Positions 5,353 to 61,267 of a stretch of 64,000 nt of DNA are shown in pieces (the first letter of the stretch is position 1; each line of letters starts with the position of its first letter). The notes beneath the pieces were generated by a model. It saw nothing but the letters and a program-made list of their open reading frames with translations. It did not search any database and was not told the origin of the DNA. This stretch comes from Pannonibacter phragmitetus DSM 14782 (lineage in GTDB: Bacteria > Pseudomonadota > Alphaproteobacteria > Rhizobiales > Stappiaceae), in the NCBI RefSeq assembly GCF_000382365.1, contig NZ_KB908220.1:124001-188000 (forward strand), written 5' to 3'. The position numbers and the translations under genes are program-made.

Positions 5353-6477
5353 TCACCTCACCCGCGAGGACACATCAATCTCCCGCTGCCATTCGCGCCA
5401 CATGGCGACCAGCAGGGCCATCAGCACCGGGCCGACGAAAAGGCCGACGATGCCCATGGTTTTCACCCCGCCGATGAGGCCGAAGAAGGTGGGTAGGAAC
5501 GGCAGTTTCACCGGGCCGCCGACGAGCAGCGGGCGGATGGTCTTGTCGACGATGAAAAGCTCCGTCGTGCCCCAGAGGAACAGGGCAACGCCGGCAACCG
5601 TGGACCCACTGGCCACCAGATAGGCCGACACCAGCGTGAAAGCCAGCGGCGCGCCGCCGGGAATGAGGGCCATGAAGCCGGTGATGACGCCAAGCGTCAC
5701 CGGTGACGGAACACCGGCAATGGCATAGGCGATACCGAGGATGATGCCCTCGCCGATGGCGATCAGCGTCATGCCGGTAACGGTGGAACTGATGGTGGCG
5801 GGTACGACGCGGGACAGCCGGTCCCAGCGCTCGGGCAGGATGCGCTGGCCCACGCGGTCGATCTGCGCGGCGATCTTCTCCCCGTCCCGGTAGAGGATGA
5901 AGAGGGCAATCAGCATGAAGACGAGCGTCAGCGCCAGATGGAAGACCAGTGTGCTTGCCGTGAGGATGCCGCGATAGATGGTGCCGATATTGGCGCCGCT
6001 GACGAGCTGGATGAGTTCACCGATCGCGCCCGGATGGCCGATATACTTGTCCCACTGGATGGTGAGCCAGGGCCCCACCTGCGGCAGGTTGGCAATCCAG
6101 CCGGGCACTTCCTCCCCCTGCTGGTTCACCGCGATGGCCCAGCTGATCCAGGACTGGGATTCGCCCACCGCATAGACCATGGCATAGGTGACCGGCGCGA
6201 CGATGAAGCCGATGATCATCAGCACCATCAGGCTTGCGGCCAGTATGCGCCCGCAAGCAAGGCGCCGCTCGATCAGCCGCAGCAGCGGCCAGCTGGCAAA
6301 GGCAATCACGGTTGCCGCCAGCACCGGCACGATGAAGCCGTGGAAGAACCAGATGGATGCCCCGAGCACGAACAGCAGCAGCCACCGTGCGGCGGCCATG
6401 TCTGTAATCAACGGGCGGCGCACACGGCCTGTCACATCCTGTGTGACTGGCACGTTTTCCTTCACTGAATGATCCAT
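5353..6477 (-). CDS. AI-2E family transporter (PerM/TqsA/YdiK-like)
   Basis: A 374-residue inner-membrane protein. Hydrophobic segments occur near residues 35-75 and 85-115 and several times after about residue 170, with the conserved amphipathic region in between. The C-terminal blocks (GVPSPVTLGVITGFMALIPGG, LFIVDKTIRPLLVGG) are characteristic. The ATG at 6477 (MDHSVKENVP) was chosen; the frame stays open upstream to 6639, but that extension is charged and low-quality. Family members are linked to autoinducer-2 export or Na+(Li+)/H+ exchange; the substrate here is unknown. It stands alone between the TA module and a repeat. Confidence 0.85.
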   Translation of the reverse strand: MDHSVKENVPVTQDVTGRVRRPLITDMAAARWLLLFVLGASIWFFHGFIVPVLAATVIAFASWPLLRLIERRLACGRILAASLMVLMIIGFIVAPVTYAMVYAVGESQSWISWAIAVNQQGEEVPGWIANLPQVGPWLTIQWDKYIGHPGAIGELIQLVSGANIGTIYRGILTASTLVFHLALTLVFMLIALFILYRDGEKIAAQIDRVGQRILPERWDRLSRVVPATISSTVTGMTLIAIGEGIILGIAYAIAGVPSPVTLGVITGFMALIPGGAPLAFTLVSAYLVASGSTVAGVALFLWGTTELFIVDKTIRPLLVGGPVKLPFLPTFFGLIGGVKTMGIVGLFVGPVLMALLVAMWREWQREIDVSSRVR

Positions 6478-34929: not shown

Positions 34930-35151
34930 TCAGCGCAAAAGCAGAGCCACAGCGCCCGCAACAGCGGCAAAGGCAACGGCAAGCATGACGCCTGCGCGCG
35001 GCAAAGCGGCAAGCCCGGCCGGACGGTCGAGATCTTCCGTCGCCGAAAGGCGGGCGAGCGCGGGAGCGCTGAACAGCCCTGCCCCCTTCGGTGCCATGGG
35101 GGCGGTCTTTTCCGGCGTTGGAGCTGCTGTCTTATCAGGCTTTTGCGTCAC
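34930..35151 (-). CDS. small tail-anchored membrane protein near the RiPP exporter
   Basis: A 73-residue protein of unknown function. It starts with GTG at 35151, supported by a GAGGAAA site about 8 bases upstream. The N-terminal half is Lys/Pro/Thr-rich (KPDKTAAPTPEKTAPM), followed by an Ala/Leu segment and one C-terminal membrane helix (LAVAFAAVAGAVALLLR). It is divergent from the C39 exporter gene at 35334. An immunity or accessory role in the RiPP cluster is possible but unsupported beyond position. Confidence 0.45.
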   Translation of the reverse strand: MTQKPDKTAAPTPEKTAPMAPKGAGLFSAPALARLSATEDLDRPAGLAALPRAGVMLAVAFAAVAGAVALLLR

Positions 35152-35333
35152 GCGCCGTTTCCTCACCGCCGATTGATGCTGCCGGGACAGATTGAGACAG
35201 ATTGCAGGCTGGCAGCCCCGGCGCAAGGCTTGCATGCGGCCGCCAAGTCCTCCATCACTCTCCAGGGACGAAGCAGGCGCAAACTCCTTGCCCGGACCTT
35301 GACCCGAAAGACCACCAGCCGCCGCGCTGCACC

Positions 35334-37385
35334 ATGTCCGGCTTCTTCATGCTGCCCCTTCTGCCCCGATTGCGAAACCGCCAGAAAGACCGTCAGAAAA
35401 ACCGCCAGAACCGGGTCTCCCGCACGCCGGATATCCGGCAGGGCGAAACCTCAGAATGCGGCATCGCGGCGCTGGCGATCATGCTCGCCCATCACGGCAG
35501 CACCGTGACGCTGGAGGATCTGCGCCAGCAGGCAGGCTCGACGCGGCTCGGTCTCACCGCCCGCCAGCTTATTACGCTCGCCAGACAGAACGGCTTTCAT
35601 GCGGCCGCCTTCCGCCGGACGCTGGAAGATCTGCGCCGCAAGCCGCTGCCGGTGATTGCCCACAGCCGATTCATCCATTTCGTCGTGATTGAGGCGGTGA
35701 CGGACAGCCATGTGCGCATCAACGACCCCGGCTGCGGCCCTCTGTTGCTGCCGCTTCACGAATTTGCCGAAGATTACACCGGCATCATTCTGACGGTGCA
35801 GCCGCTGCGCACCGCTGAGGCTGAAAGACCGCAACAGCATCCGCTTACTGCCGTGCTCCGCCCCATGCGGAAGGGCCTTGCTCTGGCAGCGCTCGCCGCC
35901 TTGACGCTGCAGGGAGCGGTGGCGCTGGCGGCCTTTCTGCTCGCAAGCAACGGCCCAGCCCTGACGCAAACCGCAACGCCGCTGCTGCTGCTCTCCGCTG
36001 CCGGGCTTGCCGGCGGAACGGCCGCTCTTGCCCGCCACCGGGCGGGACAGTCGGCAGGGCGCGCCCTGGCGCAGACGGTGGAGCGGCAGACGCGCGCCTT
36101 CATGGCCACGCAGGACCTGGACTGGTTTGCCCGCCGGACGTCCGGCCAGACGGCAAACCTGATGACATTTCCGGCCGCAGCCGAGGCGGCAGGCTGCCGG
36201 GTTTCGCGCACGGCCGATGCCCCCGGCCTTCTGCTTCTGGCCCTCGCCGCTGGCATGGGTTTCGGCCTTTCAGGGCTCGCGGTTGGCCTCTGCGGGCTTG
36301 GCGCAGCGCTGCTGACACTGACCATGACAAACCGCCGGGGCACGCTGCTGTCGCGGATGGAAGGCTCGCTGGAAGAGCTGGCTCAAACGCCGCCTGCCGT
36401 TCCATCTCCAGCGATGCTTGCCGGAATCGAAACATGGCTTTGCGGCGGGCGCAGTGATGAACTGGCGCTGCGCCTTGCGGGCTCCCATGCGGTCAGCCTT
36501 GATCAGGCGCAGCGGGCGGGCGGCAGAACGGCAAGGCTCAACGCCCTTCTTGCGCTGCTGTTTCTGGTCTCACTTGGGGCCGCCGCCGTCCACGGGCTTG
36601 CAGGCGCCCCGGCCGGCAGCGTTCTGGGGCTGTCGCTTCTCGCCGCCACTCTGCACCGGCAGGCCGGAAAGCTGAGCGGGCTTGCTCCGGCGTTGACGCA
36701 GCTGCTCGCCCTGGCTGCCACCTTGTGCGATCTGACGGACGGTACACGCCCGCAAACCGCCGAAGTCCTGCCGCGTCCGGCCTCCGCCGAACTGACACTG
36801 CGCCTTGACGGAGAAACGATAGTCCTGAGGCCCGGTGAAACGCTGGCCGTGACGGGGGCAGCAGGCAGCGGCAAGTCGCGTCTGCTGCGCGCCATCGCCG
36901 GGCTCGAGCATATGCCGGGCGCAGACATCTCGCTGAACGGCACGCCGATCAGCACGGCGGCGGAACAATGGCCCGGCCTCGTTCTGCATGAAGACAGGCC
37001 CCTGCCGCCTTTCGCAGGCACCGTGGCGGATAATCTGCGGCTCGGCCAAAGCGGCTTGGCTGATGAAACGCTGATGGCCGCGCTTGAAACGGTGGAGCTG
37101 TGGCCGGTGCTGGCCCCGCGCGGCGGCCTTGCGCTGATGCTCACGCCTGCACGCCCCGGCCTCAGCGGCGGGCAATTGCGCCGCCTGATGGTCGCCCGCT
37201 GTCTCCTGCGCCGCCCGCAGGTTCTGGTGCTGGACGAGACCCTTGATGCGCTGGAAACGGATCTGGAAGAGCGCCTGCGCCAGCGGCTGACAGCCTCCGG
37301 CATGGCCCTCGTCCTGTGCGGCGCAAGGGCGCTGACGGCGGACGCGGTCACACACACTCTTATGCTGGGAGGCCGCGATGCCTGA
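35334..37385 (+). CDS. C39-peptidase ABC exporter for a NHLP-type RiPP
   Basis: A 683-residue peptidase-containing ABC transporter. The C39 domain (residues about 32-165) has all catalytic residues: Gln36, Cys42 in SECGIAA, His115 in RFIHFVVIE and Asp131 in INDPGCG. It cuts after the double glycine of the leader while the peptide is exported. Membrane segments follow (residues about 182-430), then an ATPase with Walker A GAAGSGKS, signature LSGGQLRRL and Walker B VLVLDETLDAL. The ATG at 35334 lacks a clear ribosome site; ATG 35349 is an alternative. It overlaps the next gene by 8 bases. It most likely serves the precursor at 39220. Confidence 0.87.
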   Translation: MSGFFMLPLLPRLRNRQKDRQKNRQNRVSRTPDIRQGETSECGIAALAIMLAHHGSTVTLEDLRQQAGSTRLGLTARQLITLARQNGFHAAAFRRTLEDLRRKPLPVIAHSRFIHFVVIEAVTDSHVRINDPGCGPLLLPLHEFAEDYTGIILTVQPLRTAEAERPQQHPLTAVLRPMRKGLALAALAALTLQGAVALAAFLLASNGPALTQTATPLLLLSAAGLAGGTAALARHRAGQSAGRALAQTVERQTRAFMATQDLDWFARRTSGQTANLMTFPAAAEAAGCRVSRTADAPGLLLLALAAGMGFGLSGLAVGLCGLGAALLTLTMTNRRGTLLSRMEGSLEELAQTPPAVPSPAMLAGIETWLCGGRSDELALRLAGSHAVSLDQAQRAGGRTARLNALLALLFLVSLGAAAVHGLAGAPAGSVLGLSLLAATLHRQAGKLSGLAPALTQLLALAATLCDLTDGTRPQTAEVLPRPASAELTLRLDGETIVLRPGETLAVTGAAGSGKSRLLRAIAGLEHMPGADISLNGTPISTAAEQWPGLVLHEDRPLPPFAGTVADNLRLGQSGLADETLMAALETVELWPVLAPRGGLALMLTPARPGLSGGQLRRLMVARCLLRRPQVLVLDETLDALETDLEERLRQRLTASGMALVLCGARALTADAVTHTLMLGGRDA

Positions 37386-39213
37386 CACCGCACAGCGCCT
37401 TGCCCGCCTTGCCGCACAGGCGGACCATGCCAGCGAAGAGGACCTGCGCCGTGCCGCTCTGGATGAAGGACTGCTTCTGCGCCGCGTCCGGCTGATGCCC
37501 TCACCAGACGGCAGGCAGCAATGGCCCCTGCTGGATGCCGGGTTGATCATCGTCTTTGCGCAGGACAGTGGCCGAGCAAAGGTGATCGACACACGCAACG
37601 GCATGCCGGTTCTGGTGCAGGCCGATGGCCGCAGAAGCCGCGCGCCGGTCCCCGGCGATGTGATGCCACAAGCGCTCGCGCTTGTTGCGCCGCTGGGGCG
37701 CGCCGTTCCACTGTGGCAGGAGGCATGCGCCGCCCTGCTGGCGGGACTGGCTTTCAATGCCCCTGCTGCTGCCCTGATCCTCGCCGCCTCCCCGCTCTCC
37801 GCTGGCGCCGGGCTTGCCTTGATGGCGGCGGGCGGGGCACTTGCTGTGGGTCTGAGGCAGACTGCGGATCTGCGCCGCCTTGGGCTCGCGGATCTGGCCA
37901 GCGCCTCCGCCATCTGGCAAAGGCTGGCAAGGGCCACGCCTGCACAGCTGAACCAGTCCTCGGCGGCATCTGTTGCGGATCATCTTGCAAACAAGGTCGT
38001 AAAGGCGCGCAAAGCCAGCCTGCGCAAGGGCGGGCGGCTCTCCGGGCTGGGCCTTGCGCTTCCCGCGCTCGGCCTGCTGGGAGCCACCGGCCTTGCCCCC
38101 CTTGCCGCAGCTGCTGCCGTGATACTGCCCGGACTTGCCCTCCGGCACTGGCTGATGCGGCGGGAGCTGCGCCTTGAAGCGGTGATGAAACATCCCGCGG
38201 CAGAGCTGCAGCAAACCTCAAGCCTTGCCGCAGCCGCCCTGCCGCAGTTGCGGCTGATGGGCGAAGCGGACTGGCTGTTGCAGAAGACGGGAAAGCTCGA
38301 GGCAGAGGTCAGGCTCCTGCACCGGCGGCACCTGCGGGTCGGCGCGTACCGCTCTGCCCTCGAAGTCCTGCTGACGGGTGCAGCGGGATTTGCGGCATGG
38401 CTTGCCGCAGGCCCGGAAGCCTCCCTTGCCGTCGCAGGAGGAGCAATCGCCGCTGCCACACTGGCCGCGGCCGCCCTGCAGGCGAGCCCCCCGCTTCTGC
38501 CGCACAATCCGCAAGGGCTAGACTGGCTGGAGGACAGCACGGCCGGCGCTGCCTTGCCGGCAGCCATTGCACCCATTGAAGAAATCCGCTGCGAAGGCCT
38601 GAGTTTCCGCTATCACGGGGCACAGGAAAAGGTTCTGGAGAATGCCAGCCTGACATTGCGGCGCGGCGCGGTCACAGTCCTCACCGGGCCCTCCGGCTGC
38701 GGCAAGTCCACGTTGATCCAGCTGCTTCTGGGCTTCCAGAGCCCGGAACGCGGACGCATTCTGGTGAACGGCCAGCCGCAGGACCGGCTCGACCCGGCAA
38801 GCTACCGGCGCCGCATCGGTTGCGTCTTTCAGGACGAAAGCATCAGTCTCGACACGATCCGCGCCGCCATACTGGGCATGGCACCGCTCCGGGACGAGGC
38901 CATCGCCCGCGGCCTGCACGTCACCGGACTGGATGATGAAATTGCCACGCTGCCCATGGGCGTACAGACGCTGGTGGCTGAAGGAGTGGTTTCGCAAAAC
39001 CTTGTACAGCGGCTGCTGATTGCCCGGGCCGTGGCACGCGAACCTGACTTCCTGATCCTGGACGAGACCGTCACCGGCCTCGATCCGGACCAGATTTCAA
39101 GGCTGCTTGAAGCCCTGCGCAAAGACGGGACCGGGGTTCTGATCGTGACCCACAATCCCGCCATTCTGGCTCAGGCCGATGCCGTGGTGCGGCTCGGCAA
39201 GGGTGGCGGCTGA
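37378..39213 (+). CDS. second NHLM-type ABC exporter subunit, degenerate signature
   Basis: A 611-residue ABC protein without peptidase. The N-terminal about 110 residues resemble the extra N-terminal domain of NHLM ATPase-permeases; weak membrane segments follow (about 117-160, 220-260, 330-370). The ATPase has Walker A GPSGCGKST and Walker B FLILDETVTGLD. The signature position, usually LSGGQ, reads VVSQNLVQR, so one ATP site of the heterodimer should be degenerate. It overlaps the C39 gene and they probably form an asymmetric exporter. It ends six bases before the stop of the convergent precursor gene. Confidence 0.83.
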   Translation: MPDTAQRLARLAAQADHASEEDLRRAALDEGLLLRRVRLMPSPDGRQQWPLLDAGLIIVFAQDSGRAKVIDTRNGMPVLVQADGRRSRAPVPGDVMPQALALVAPLGRAVPLWQEACAALLAGLAFNAPAAALILAASPLSAGAGLALMAAGGALAVGLRQTADLRRLGLADLASASAIWQRLARATPAQLNQSSAASVADHLANKVVKARKASLRKGGRLSGLGLALPALGLLGATGLAPLAAAAAVILPGLALRHWLMRRELRLEAVMKHPAAELQQTSSLAAAALPQLRLMGEADWLLQKTGKLEAEVRLLHRRHLRVGAYRSALEVLLTGAAGFAAWLAAGPEASLAVAGGAIAAATLAAAALQASPPLLPHNPQGLDWLEDSTAGAALPAAIAPIEEIRCEGLSFRYHGAQEKVLENASLTLRRGAVTVLTGPSGCGKSTLIQLLLGFQSPERGRILVNGQPQDRLDPASYRRRIGCVFQDESISLDTIRAAILGMAPLRDEAIARGLHVTGLDDEIATLPMGVQTLVAEGVVSQNLVQRLLIARAVAREPDFLILDETVTGLDPDQISRLLEALRKDGTGVLIVTHNPAILAQADAVVRLGKGGG

Positions 39214-39219
39214 AGCTGC

Positions 39220-39525
39220 TTAGCCGAAACTGATCTTGCTACCCTTTCCAAAGTCTTTCATCGACGGCCTCGGAGGAATACCACCGGCCACGAGGTCCAG
39301 TTCACTGTCAGCCAGCGAGTCATCCGGAGCAAGCCCGGCCGTCCAGCCCTTGTCACCCTCGAAAACAACCATCGGCACCGGCAGATCAAGGCCATAATGG
39401 GCCTTCACAGCTGCATTCAGATCCGCCTTGGCCTCGGCCAGAAAGGCTGCATCCTCATTCAGGCGTGCGCGTACCTTCTCAACCGTGTCGACGCCGAAGA
39501 GGACGTTCAAGTCAATCTTTTCCAT
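39220..39525 (-). CDS. NHLP-type RiPP precursor peptide
   Basis: A 101-residue precursor. Residues 1-82 resemble a nitrile-hydratase-like leader peptide (VEKVRARLNEDAAFLAEAK, YGLDLPVPMVVFEGD, LADSELDLVAGG), ending in a Gly-Gly that a C39 peptidase would cut. The predicted core is 19 residues, IPPRPSMKDFGKGSKISFG: three Lys, three Ser, two Phe, no Cys, Thr or Trp. Lack of Cys rules out lanthipeptide thioethers and sactipeptides. The ATG at 39525 has an AGGAGA site. The GNAT gene is directly upstream on the same strand and the exporter genes converge on it. A Lys-acylated (selidamide-like) product is the favoured inference. Confidence 0.85.
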   Translation of the reverse strand: MEKIDLNVLFGVDTVEKVRARLNEDAAFLAEAKADLNAAVKAHYGLDLPVPMVVFEGDKGWTAGLAPDDSLADSELDLVAGGIPPRPSMKDFGKGSKISFG

Positions 39526-39604
39526 GCTTATTCTCCTGTTTGAAGGGCGCAGTGGTGCCCTGATACCAAGTTTTCGATGCTGACACATGACGCCTTGAAA
39601 CAGC

Positions 39605-40582
39605 TCAAGCTGTTTCGATGTTCTGGCATGCCAAGGTCTTGTTCATGCGCCAGTGCTCGTCGACCTGCAGCGCAATCGGCCCGAACCGGCGGCGCACCAT
39701 GGCCGCCATGCGGGGAATAGATGTGTGAAAGACGGCAATGGAGCCCGGACCATAGGTGTTGACCTGCGCCTCAAAGGCAGCCCTGTATGCACCCACCAGC
39801 AGCCCGGTATGCCAGAGCCTCTGGGTGAGATAGGCAGACCGGTAGCACACGCCTTTCCTCCCCCTGTAGGCATCCAGCGTGATCACGGGCAGCGACTCTG
39901 CCACCACCCAGCCCAGAAGCTGGCCACTCCGGCGCACAGCGACGGAGCAGGCTGGGTCGAAGGTCTCGGGGTCAGCCTGCGGCGCCATGCCGGGCACATA
40001 GCCCGGTTCGCGTGACAACGCCTCCACGGCCGCAAGATCCACGCCGTCCAGTTCGCGCCAAGGCTCGAGACTTGCGCTCTCCGGATTGCGCAGGCGCTTC
40101 ATGATGCTGGGCCACTGGTTCACGGCGTCAAGCATCGCCCCGGCCTCGCCCGTGGTGATCAGTTCGGCCAGTTCCGGCACAGAAAAGCCGGCCGCACCAA
40201 GACACCGCACCAGAGCATCCCGCTGGCCGATCCGCGACGAAAAGCCAATGTCCACGATCACCGCTCCCCGCGTCTGCGCCTCCGCTGCGAAGGCCTCAGC
40301 CAAACCGCGGCCATAGCCTTGGTCCCTCAAGGGCGCGGCAACCATCAGCGAGAGAAGGAGCGCGGTCTTATCCTGCACCACACCAAGAGCGAGCCCCGCC
40401 GGAATACCGGCGATCCTGAGCCCAACCGCAATCCATGGCGCATTGACGGGCGACAGACGCGATGCAAGCCGGGGGAACCCAAACACAGCAAAACCGCCCG
40501 CTTCACCTTCAAGCAACTCGACGGCCATGCCGGGAGATGCCGTCTCCATCAAGGTGCTGTTGCTGGGGACACGGGCGTTCAA
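39605..40582 (-). CDS. GNAT N-acyltransferase, candidate RiPP maturase
   Basis: A 325-residue protein with two GNAT-like halves. In the first half the acyl-CoA/ACP loop Q-G-Y-G-R-G is at residues 88-93 (in VAAPLRDQGYGRGLAEAF), preceded by the beta4 strand. The second half ends in TQRLWHTGLLVGAYRAAFEA and VFHTSIPRMAAMVRRRFG. TTG 40582 is chosen because AGGGAGAAG precedes it; the frame opens to 40663. It ends 79 bases before the precursor start and reads in the same direction. Known selidamide maturases are GNATs that put fatty acyl groups on Lys or Orn of NHLP-type peptides. Acetyl transfer cannot be excluded. Confidence 0.8.
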   Translation of the reverse strand: MNARVPSNSTLMETASPGMAVELLEGEAGGFAVFGFPRLASRLSPVNAPWIAVGLRIAGIPAGLALGVVQDKTALLLSLMVAAPLRDQGYGRGLAEAFAAEAQTRGAVIVDIGFSSRIGQRDALVRCLGAAGFSVPELAELITTGEAGAMLDAVNQWPSIMKRLRNPESASLEPWRELDGVDLAAVEALSREPGYVPGMAPQADPETFDPACSVAVRRSGQLLGWVVAESLPVITLDAYRGRKGVCYRSAYLTQRLWHTGLLVGAYRAAFEAQVNTYGPGSIAVFHTSIPRMAAMVRRRFGPIALQVDEHWRMNKTLACQNIETA

Positions 40583-40760
40583 GGCATCTTCTCCCTGTGC
40601 GGGGCAGATCCCCGCTTCACCAGTCCATCTAGAGCCGGACCAGCCCGCAGGGCAACGGCACATTTGGGGTGGATCTCATATGGGTCACCAATGAGCATGA
40701 AGCACCGGAAATCCGGCATCAGGAGCCATGCAGCCAGTACCGCAACCGGCCTGCCCAAGC

Positions 40761-40796
40761 AAAAATCCCGCCGGCAGCGCCAGTCTGCCGGCGGGA
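40761..40796 (-). terminator. strong intrinsic terminator after the TerC-family gene
   Basis: Perfect 12-bp stem TCCCGCCGGCAG (40766-40777) / CTGCCGGCGGGA (40785-40796) with a 7-base loop, followed on the minus strand by TTTTT. It separates the TerC-type gene from the GNAT/RiPP pair, which read in the same direction, so they are not one operon. Confidence 0.92.
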
Positions 40797-40817
40797 TATA
40801 TTTAGAAAATCCGGGCC

Positions 40818-41863: not shown

Positions 41864-41883
41864 GCATCAAGCGCACTTGATGC
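41864..41883. other. intergenic hairpin between the cyclase and TerC-type genes
   Basis: Perfect 8-bp inverted repeat GCATCAAG / CTTGATGC around a 4-base CGCA loop, in the 201-bp gap. A 10-bp palindrome TGTCATGACA lies at 41821-41830 nearby, close to the TerC-type start. The hairpin may end the cyclase mRNA (no T-run), and the palindrome could be an operator. Confidence 0.4.
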
Positions 41884-42005
41884 GGTCCGACATCACGAGG
41901 CGCCTGCTCTTGGAGTTCAGTGCGCATCGCCAGAGGGGCCCGGCCCGCTGCGCGATAGATAACAGGGAATTGAAGAAATACAAGCCTCAGCCAAACTGGC
42001 GCCGC

Positions 42006-59902: not shown

Positions 59903-61267
59903 ATGGCAGAAAACTTCAACTATATCTCATTTGGAAGCTGGGAATATTTAGAAAATACAGATAGCGAGATCTCGATGAATCGCGGTCGTATGTTTGAGTA
60001 CACGCCGACTGAAATCGAGAAACGCTTGGAAGATTTCGGAGAAACATCGATATCTTTCCTGGAAAAGCTGCCCACATTCCTCTGTAGCGAGATCTATCGC
60101 TCCAAGCCTAATTACTCCATGCTAATACGTTACGGACAGATCAGCAGGACGCATGTAAGCGAAAGAGAAATTACGACTCACTTTGAAAATATAATCGATT
60201 TTGGCAAAGTAGAATTCACAAATTTCGAACAGGCACGAGAAGTCTTCAATGCCGATGGATTTCAGCTTTACCGAACACATTGGGCAGTCCGCAATGGCGA
60301 TGCTCGAGAAATATTAAAGAAACTAGAGGAATTCTGCCCAACTCAAAAACTGATGATCAATCAAGTTCTCGCGCAAAAGGGCAATGCGGCAGAGCCCCCA
60401 CCGCGCCAGAAGAATATCATCGGAAGCGCAAGTAGTGTCGAAGAGTTCCTAGCATATCTATATGCAATTCCCGCCACTGACTCGACTGAGAACTTTTTTA
60501 GAGGACACGAGGATCAAAACTTTGAGCTGACACCATCTCTACTGAGGAAAAGGCTCGATGGCGCGTGGCAATATATGCCACATGAGGACCGATTATGCAA
60601 AGAATTACTCATAGGGCATTACGATGACTTCGAAGGAGATCAATATTGCTTCGATCGTCTTGTGCGCATGCAGCACTATGGATTGCCAACACGTCTCCTC
60701 GACATAACCAGCAATCCGCTCGTTGCGCTCTTCTTTGCCTGCTATGAAAACGACGAGACAATCAAAACCGACGGCGAAGTGATAATATTCCAAATAAGAT
60801 CAGAGAGGATAAAATATTACGATTCCGACACAGTAAGTTGCATTTCCAACTTATCAAATCTTACCTACGATCAGAAAGGGGAAATAGATTTAAGTTTAAG
60901 CATGGAAGATTTTAATAATCTAGCCGTCGCCCAGAAGCTTCTTCATCATATTCGATCAGAGAAGAGTTACTTCGAAGGGCGGATTATGCCCGACGATCTG
61001 GGCTCAATCATTTGCGTAAAGGCCAAGCAGACGAATACTCGCATTAAATCACAATCAGGCGCATTTCTGATCTACGGACACGAGGAAACGCTTCCCGAAG
61101 GAGGCAATGAAGGTATTGAGATTTCACGTATTACGGTCAAAGAAAAACAAAAAATCTTGCAACAACTCGACAGTATCAATATCAACGCAACAACAGTTTA
61201 CCCAAGCATAGAACAGACAACAATCCATCTTCGAAATAGAATAAAAAACCTATCCTTCAATAAGTAA
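59903..61267 (+). CDS. FRG-domain protein, AT-rich (probably acquired)
   Basis: A 454-residue protein with an FRG domain in its second half (residues about 180-340): ENFFRGHEDQNFELTPSLLRKRL then QHYGLPTRLLDITSNPLVALFFAC, the domain's FRGQ-like and RLLD motifs. The first half is unrecognised. The base composition is strongly AT-rich compared with neighbouring genes, indicating recent transfer. FRG domains occur in mobile and defence-associated loci; a phage-defence role is plausible but no partner gene is seen. Upstream is a short AT-rich leader. Confidence 0.82.
   Translation: MAENFNYISFGSWEYLENTDSEISMNRGRMFEYTPTEIEKRLEDFGETSISFLEKLPTFLCSEIYRSKPNYSMLIRYGQISRTHVSEREITTHFENIIDFGKVEFTNFEQAREVFNADGFQLYRTHWAVRNGDAREILKKLEEFCPTQKLMINQVLAQKGNAAEPPPRQKNIIGSASSVEEFLAYLYAIPATDSTENFFRGHEDQNFELTPSLLRKRLDGAWQYMPHEDRLCKELLIGHYDDFEGDQYCFDRLVRMQHYGLPTRLLDITSNPLVALFFACYENDETIKTDGEVIIFQIRSERIKYYDSDTVSCISNLSNLTYDQKGEIDLSLSMEDFNNLAVAQKLLHHIRSEKSYFEGRIMPDDLGSIICVKAKQTNTRIKSQSGAFLIYGHEETLPEGGNEGIEISRITVKEKQKILQQLDSININATTVYPSIEQTTIHLRNRIKNLSFNK

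Follow-up and report, generated by a model that had tools for sequence, protein, structure and literature searches.

Lipidation of ribosomally synthesized and post-translationally modified peptides (RiPPs) was called very rare in a 2022 review, which defines the selidamides by acylation of side chains and not by rings (PMC9505594); the three members named in PMC9505594 and PMC13060382 combine rings of the LanM type with acylation. In this study we describe a locus in Pannonibacter phragmitetus DSM 14782, within a 64,000-nucleotide stretch (the window, positions 124,001 to 188,000 of contig NZ_KB908220.1, assembly GCF_000382365.1) to whose own numbering all positions refer. Taken as a whole, the locus is probably best explained as a selidamide-type RiPP locus with a reduced exporter. 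The narrower reading, a RiPP locus with a GNAT protein as the sole recognised modifier, is well supported on sequence grounds, because the gene set recurs in Pannonibacter indicus DSM 23407 (genome G002) and in six genomes of the distantly related Azospirillum type.

Like the pha locus of Pseudophaeobacter arcticus, which belongs to the selidamide phaeornamide, the window locus combines an NHLP-family precursor, a GNAT maturase and a peptidase-containing exporter, with a Gly-Gly motif after which the leader is cut (predicted here), in an alphaproteobacterial host; pha differs in having an arginase, a hydroxylase and a LanM enzyme acting on the core as well as the transporters PhaT1-3 (PMC9505594), whereas in the window the GNAT is the only recognised modifier, the core is free of cysteine and a stub HlyD stands in the adaptor's place. 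No LanM was seen among 88 open reading frames (ORFs) at 30-46 kb, 8 of which were Pfam-scanned. The npu locus of Nostoc punctiforme (nostolysamide) is comparable in that its GNAT, NpuN, has a clear P-loop that is confined to the N-terminal domain; its acyl acceptor is a lysine side chain, as is predicted for the window locus, and it differs in making a class II lanthipeptide with the acceptor lysine at core position 1 (PMC13060382). With the NHLM exporter (TIGR03794/03796/03797; PMC2887384) the window locus shares a pair of C39-ABC and ABC proteins and the N-terminal motif of HlyD, differing in that both ABC proteins lie below the curated cut-offs, the signature of ABC2 is degenerate and the HlyD is devoid of its entire periplasmic part. 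The canonical NHLP/GNAT arrays found in Pannonibacter (contig C8 of the window genome, and genomes G001-G004) likewise have NHLP leaders and two tandem-type GNATs; those GNATs form a separate clade, and a full HlyD and a TIGR03796 exporter above the cut-off are present in the window genome. A literature search, with most subscription papers outside it, found nothing on a truncated NHLM HlyD and, among the matches listed, nothing on this locus.

Gene content and conservation of the locus

The features discussed are as follows:
34930 to 35151, minus strand: stub HlyD of 73 residues, GTG start (the ORF extends to 35235), with the LFSAPALARLSATEDLD motif and one C-terminal transmembrane helix
35349 to 37385, plus strand: ABC1, a C39 peptidase-permease-ATPase (start alternatives 35202 and 35334; Peptidase_C39 1.6e-32)
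37378 to 39213, plus strand: ABC2, partner permease-ATPase with the degenerate ABC signature VVSQNLVQRLLIAR (TIGR03797, 156.5 bits)
39220 to 39525, minus strand: precursor gene, diverged NHLP-type leader plus core, an ORF of 101 residues with ATG at 39525 and its stop ending at 39220
39280 to 39525, minus strand: precursor leader of 82 residues (...DLNAAVKAHYG...ELDLVAGG), with 38 invariant columns among four leaders
39223 to 39279, minus strand: precursor core IPPRPSMKDFGKGSKISFG, the predicted acceptor being lysine K8 of the core (residue 90)
39605 to 40582, minus strand: tandem-type GNAT (start candidates include 40663 ATG, 40582 TTG and 40549 ATG), assigned by Pfam, tree and alignment
39100 to 40812, no strand: putative exchanged module of precursor and GNAT, placed by a drop in nucleotide identity to P. 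indicus; edges approximate

This layout agrees with the original prediction, which had described a 101-residue precursor whose leader runs to Gly-Gly before a 19-residue core with three lysines and no cysteine, a two-half GNAT 79 bases upstream on the same strand (the gap being 39526-39604) and a C39-ABC protein with a partner ABC protein converging on the precursor, where 6 bases separate the stops of ABC2 and the precursor. Its claim that the leader is NHLP-like stands by way of relatives and profile comparison, the window precursor itself having no match. The window leader is 80, 65 and 52% identical to those of three relatives, and TIGR03793 matches a paralogue on contig C2 of the window genome (an orphan copy) at 4.5e-6, one of two P. 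indicus precursors at 0.093 (the second copy giving no match), the A. oryzae-type copy at 4.2e-6 and the G512 copy at 1.1e-3; these relatives score, from lowest to highest, 12.6, 18.7, 26.4 and 26.5 bits and no copy reaches the curated cut-off of 50.9 bits. With the window leader as query, phmmer found Pannonibacter NHLP leaders at 5.6e-4, and a single hhalign comparison of 10 leaders of the window type with 7 canonical NHLP leaders gave 96.9% over 70 columns. These comparisons make the window leader type a diverged branch of the NHLP leaders, marked by a DLNAAV signature.

In the N-half of the GNAT, Pfam Acetyltransf_1 is found at E=7e-4, just below the gathering score (16 of the 17 family members match this model), and alignment places the P-loop RDQGYG (R-x-x-G-x-G) in this half only; the N-half is thus recognised by motif and Pfam, and the C-half by alignment only. 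The sequence GGGAGA lies upstream of the candidate start at 40582. A tree of 24 full-length relatives places the window GNAT in a clade with those of P. indicus, the orphan C2 copy and Azospirillum (support 98/97), joined next by a Shinella GNAT that stands beside a Nif11-type precursor (99/98), while the GNATs of the canonical Pannonibacter NHLP arrays and a second Shinella GNAT form a separate clade (99/98). Because all 24 proteins came from similarity searches, with no outside acetyltransferase and neither PhaN nor NpuN, the tree gives placement within the family and no distance from unrelated acetyltransferases; within this scope the GNAT falls, as the original prediction would have it, among tandem GNATs of other precursor/C39 loci. 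Both clades meet in one locus of Shinella sp. H4-D48 plasmid p1 (L091, 11890-16099), where one GNAT adjoins a Nif11-type precursor and the other an NHLP precursor, and a radical SAM gene is also present.

It might be supposed that this GNAT transfers acetyl (C2) or acylates the N-terminus, yielding a small acetylated peptide and no lipopeptide. Acyl length cannot be told from sequence, the best sequence relatives of the family profile in the PDB belong to the small acetyltransferases, an example being the S18-modifying enzyme, and no dedicated acyl-carrier gene was recognised in the locus, the FabI-like neighbour being kept in Pannonibacter genomes that lack the locus as well. Against this, both PhaN and NpuN, which belong to comparable loci, transfer a long acyl group (PMC9505594, PMC13060382), and we regard the acetylation reading as unlikely. 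The FabI-like gene had been considered as the acyl supplier of the locus and was set aside because its orthologues (72-74% identity) adjoin DUF3141 in three locus-free Pannonibacter genomes.

Conservation of the precursor with the GNAT and C39 genes, proposed as a check by the original prediction, is seen in P. indicus and six Azospirillaceae genomes. P. indicus has the same genes in the same order and on the same strands as the window, plus one extra precursor, and the locus (stub HlyD, GNAT, precursor, ABC1 and ABC2) is present in 2 of the 5 Pannonibacter genomes, all five of which carry the other GNAT type. At 1e-3 the GNAT matches in 16 of 87 genomes of the family, strongly only in the two Pannonibacter genomes with the locus; at 1e-7 in 3 of 385 genomes of the class (drawn from a larger group, and including the window genome); at 1e-10 in 4 of 43 genomes from the order to which G465 belongs; and at 1e-15 in 12 of 82 Azospirillaceae-type genomes, in 6 of them at E<1e-130. 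The Azospirillaceae-type group was recognised through G137, whose GlmU is an 88% match to that of A. oryzae. Neighbours were examined at 12 of the 22 Azospirillaceae-type GNAT places: the full set of stub HlyD, GNAT, precursor, ABC1 and ABC2 was found in all six genomes with a strong GNAT match, and among the other six places a compact exporter and stub were found in G582 only, the remaining five having a GNAT with no matching exporter within 16-17 kb (one chance-level match to the stub model, 0.024, in L137). A. oryzae KACC 14407 (L090), whose ABC proteins are identical to those of G533, was counted once, and G292 has no C39 or ABC match in the 17 kb examined. A GNAT stands beside a leader-bearing precursor in the window, in P. 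indicus, at the orphan C2 locus and in the six Azospirillaceae genomes. A scan of contigs with GNAT patterns found P. indicus only, missing the Azospirillum cassettes, which differ at the pattern. A plain empty site between FabI and TerC was not seen, G001, G003 and G004 having no TerC match in the 14 kb examined.

Canonical NHLP precursor arrays with two tandem-type GNATs occur in 5 of 5 Pannonibacter genomes, with 2 precursors in G000 (contig C8), 8 in G001, 1 in G002, 7 in G003 and 8 in G004 in the stretches examined; several of their cores are near-identical between species.

The compact exporter and its stub HlyD

ABC1 has the Cys, His and Asp motifs of a C39 peptidase (QGETSECG..., HFVVIE...NDP) and intact Walker A, Walker B and LSGGQ signatures. 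The signature of ABC2 departs from LSGGQ at all 11 compact-exporter loci, reading SQNLVQ in Pannonibacter, FPAG[LM][MV]Q in Azospirillum and GAGEVQ in G582, with a milder departure, STGQKQ, in G465 and G478. Judged by sequence, the window exporter is a relative of NHLM that falls below the NHLM cut-offs and lacks the adaptor body. In G465 (L092, 9329-13777) the compact C39-ABC1 and ABC2 are apparently fused in one frame of 1482 residues; a GNAT adjoins this frame, as do several Nif11-like ORFs, and a canonical exporter lies next to it.

The original prediction did not mention the stub gene, although the end of the stub is the left edge of the interval it reported. The stub ORF (...GLFSAPALARLSATEDLDRPAGLAALPRAGVMLAVAFAAVAGAVALLLR) carries a motif that resembles the N-terminus of NHLM HlyD, the cytosolic segment. 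In shuffle tests its score was reached by 0 of 2000 shuffles against an Azospirillum stub and against a full Pannonibacter HlyD, by 1 of 2000 against the Shinella HlyD and by 2 of 2000 against the G465 HlyD. A hidden Markov model built only from the N-termini of 7 full HlyDs and run on 7218 ORFs ranked the stubs among and next after 10 full HlyDs, with E-values of 8e-10 to 1.6e-4 for Azospirillum and G582, 0.013 for the window and 0.28 for P. indicus, and of 0.2 and 1.1 for G465 and G478, where the candidate stub is a small ORF that lies between the exporter and the GNAT. Because unrelated ORFs begin at 0.45, the G465 and G478 stubs are weak, as is the P. indicus stub by this model alone; the latter is 82% identical to the window stub. 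A stub HlyD is clear at 9 of the 11 compact-exporter loci and weak at 2. No periplasmic HlyD sequence was found near the stub in the window (17 kb), in P. indicus, in A. oryzae or at six Azospirillum loci.

These stubs could instead be decaying remnants of a lost adaptor, leaving the compact exporter wholly dependent on the full HlyD that belongs to the canonical NHLM locus. Such a full NHLM-type HlyD is indeed present in every stub-bearing genome checked (the window genome, P. indicus, A. oryzae, G582, G465 and G478, the check in the remaining five Azospirillum genomes being limited to 15 kb), and constraint on the Pannonibacter stubs is weak, as detailed below. The cut-off point is nevertheless constant: the window stub ends 2 residues past the transmembrane helix, and all 7 stubs measured (Pannonibacter, Azospirillum, G582) end 0-4 residues past it, the weak stubs of G465 and G478 ending 16 residues past. 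Moreover, neutrality is rejected (P<0.05) for 12 of 15 Azospirillum stub pairs, at dN/dS 0.29-0.57, and Pannonibacter and Azospirillum stubs have the residues TED[LFY]D[RQ]P in common, all of which makes a decaying remnant a rather improbable explanation, although the exporter may still rely on the full HlyD in trans. According to a 2021 review, the cytosolic N-terminus of type I secretion adaptors is hardly characterised structurally, yet neither recognition of the substrate nor assembly of the complex can do without it (PMC8277102).

Probable module exchange, orphan copies and cores

Between the window and P. indicus, nucleotide identity is 67-80% from about 39.06 to 40.8 kb and 83-97% on both sides, the bin at 83% being the transmembrane region of the stub. 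Synonymous divergence (dS) is 0.15-0.31 for the FabI-like, stub, ABC1, ABC2, TerC and cyclase genes, whereas it reaches 1.13 in the GNAT and, among the leaders, 1.7-2.1, an excess of 5-10 times in the GNAT and precursor over exporter and flanks; within the module P. indicus has two precursors and the window one. Given this excess, the GNAT and precursor have probably been exchanged as a unit, separate divergence of the two genes being less likely. On contig C2 the window genome carries a second, orphan GNAT-precursor pair beside tRNA-Ser (core GAQQCAISLVGSKLRT), with no exporter within the stretch read. On A. oryzae plasmid 6 (L094, about 6004-6336) an orphan precursor with the window leader type lies just upstream of glmU, with no GNAT recognised alongside.

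Lysine occurs in all 11 distinct cores (background 2.1%; the product of chances is 6e-6, for cores that are not fully independent), and cysteine makes up 1 of their 214 residues. The window core resembles the core IVSPPRMKDSVKGARFS of the Shinella Nif11-type precursor, a score reached by 2 of 5000 shuffles, the next-best pair, window and C2, being equalled by 298 of 5000. A single motif for all cores was dropped, likeness beyond shuffles being confined to the window-Shinella pair. When 7 of the 11 cores were chosen and aligned with MAFFT, leaving aside the C2 core, the orphan core of A. oryzae and the two from P. indicus, the single common lysine column was K90 of the window, which is on this alignment the likely acceptor.

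The orphan copies, which have no exporter near them in the stretches examined, might also suggest a signalling or envelope peptide that is not a secreted natural product, with the GNAT as a leader-guided modifier and no bioactive product; consistent with this, no immunity gene or regulator was recognised among the ORFs of 34.6-40.8 kb. A Gly-Gly leader next to a C39 exporter, however, argues for export, and the diversity of the cores is typical of RiPP products, so that we consider such a peptide quite unlikely.

Elsewhere in the window an Rfam terC RNA (RF03067, 54.7 bits) was found at 41878-41951 on the minus strand, upstream of the TerC gene, and an FRG-domain protein (PF08867, 7e-19) at 59903-61267 on the plus strand; the latter looks acquired, its 2-kb bin having 47% G+C compared with 57-69% in the other bins.

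Proposed pathway and significance

In the pathway that we propose, the leader would recruit the GNAT, which would transfer an acyl group, most likely of medium or long chain, to a lysine of the core, probably K90. The C39 domain of ABC1 would then cut after Gly82, and an ABC1/ABC2 heterodimer would carry the 19-residue peptide over the inner membrane, the pair being presumably asymmetric, with a full ATPase signature in ABC1 and a degenerate one in ABC2. The stub would retain only two parts of the NHLM adaptor, its cytosolic segment and its transmembrane anchor; its most likely role is at the inner membrane, in assembly or in handling of the substrate, and not as a bridge to the outer membrane. 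The product may either stay in the periplasm or borrow the full HlyD that the genome encodes elsewhere, at its canonical NHLM locus.

A number of results weigh against this reading. At E<=1 the window precursor is matched by no NCBIfam or Pfam model; ABC1 reaches 224.5 bits of the 853.3 set as the TIGR03796 cut-off, and ABC2 156.5 of the 709.4 for TIGR03797; neither TIGR03794 nor any other NCBIfam HlyD model matched in the 8 stubs scanned; and an AlphaFold prediction of the GNAT from a two-row alignment had a confidence score (pLDDT, predicted local distance difference test) of 36. Neutrality is not rejected for the three closest Azospirillum stub pairs (dN/dS 0.67-1.92), and the window and P. 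indicus stubs are weakly constrained (dN/dS 0.56-0.70), with P=0.047 for the whole stub and about 0.25 for each half in neutral simulation, and 22 of 81 bases differing in the transmembrane half. No mutual similarity beyond shuffles is seen between the window core, those of P. indicus and that of the orphan C2 copy, and because of this the common acceptor site is aligned in just 7 of the 11 cores.

In conclusion, the original prediction is extended by the stub HlyD, by the degenerate signature of ABC2, by the probable exchange of the module and by a second, orphan GNAT-precursor pair. More tentatively, and with rather less confidence than in the selidamide-type reading itself, these loci may represent RiPP exporters of a lineage of their own. 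Their type I secretion adaptor would be cut down to a cytosolic docking segment on one transmembrane helix, an ABC heterodimer with a degenerate signature in its second half would deliver acylated peptides no further than the periplasm or inner membrane, or else to a shared full adaptor, and the GNAT-precursor module would be swapped between strains like a cartridge.

Ribosomal lipopeptides are few, and this locus, if the reading is true, would be a minimal version, with one recognisable modifying enzyme and a short cysteine-free core. The stub HlyD makes it testable what the cytosolic N-terminus of a type I adaptor does alone, and the probable exchange of GNAT and precursor, with the exporter staying fixed, points to a natural means of pairing acyltransferases with new cores.

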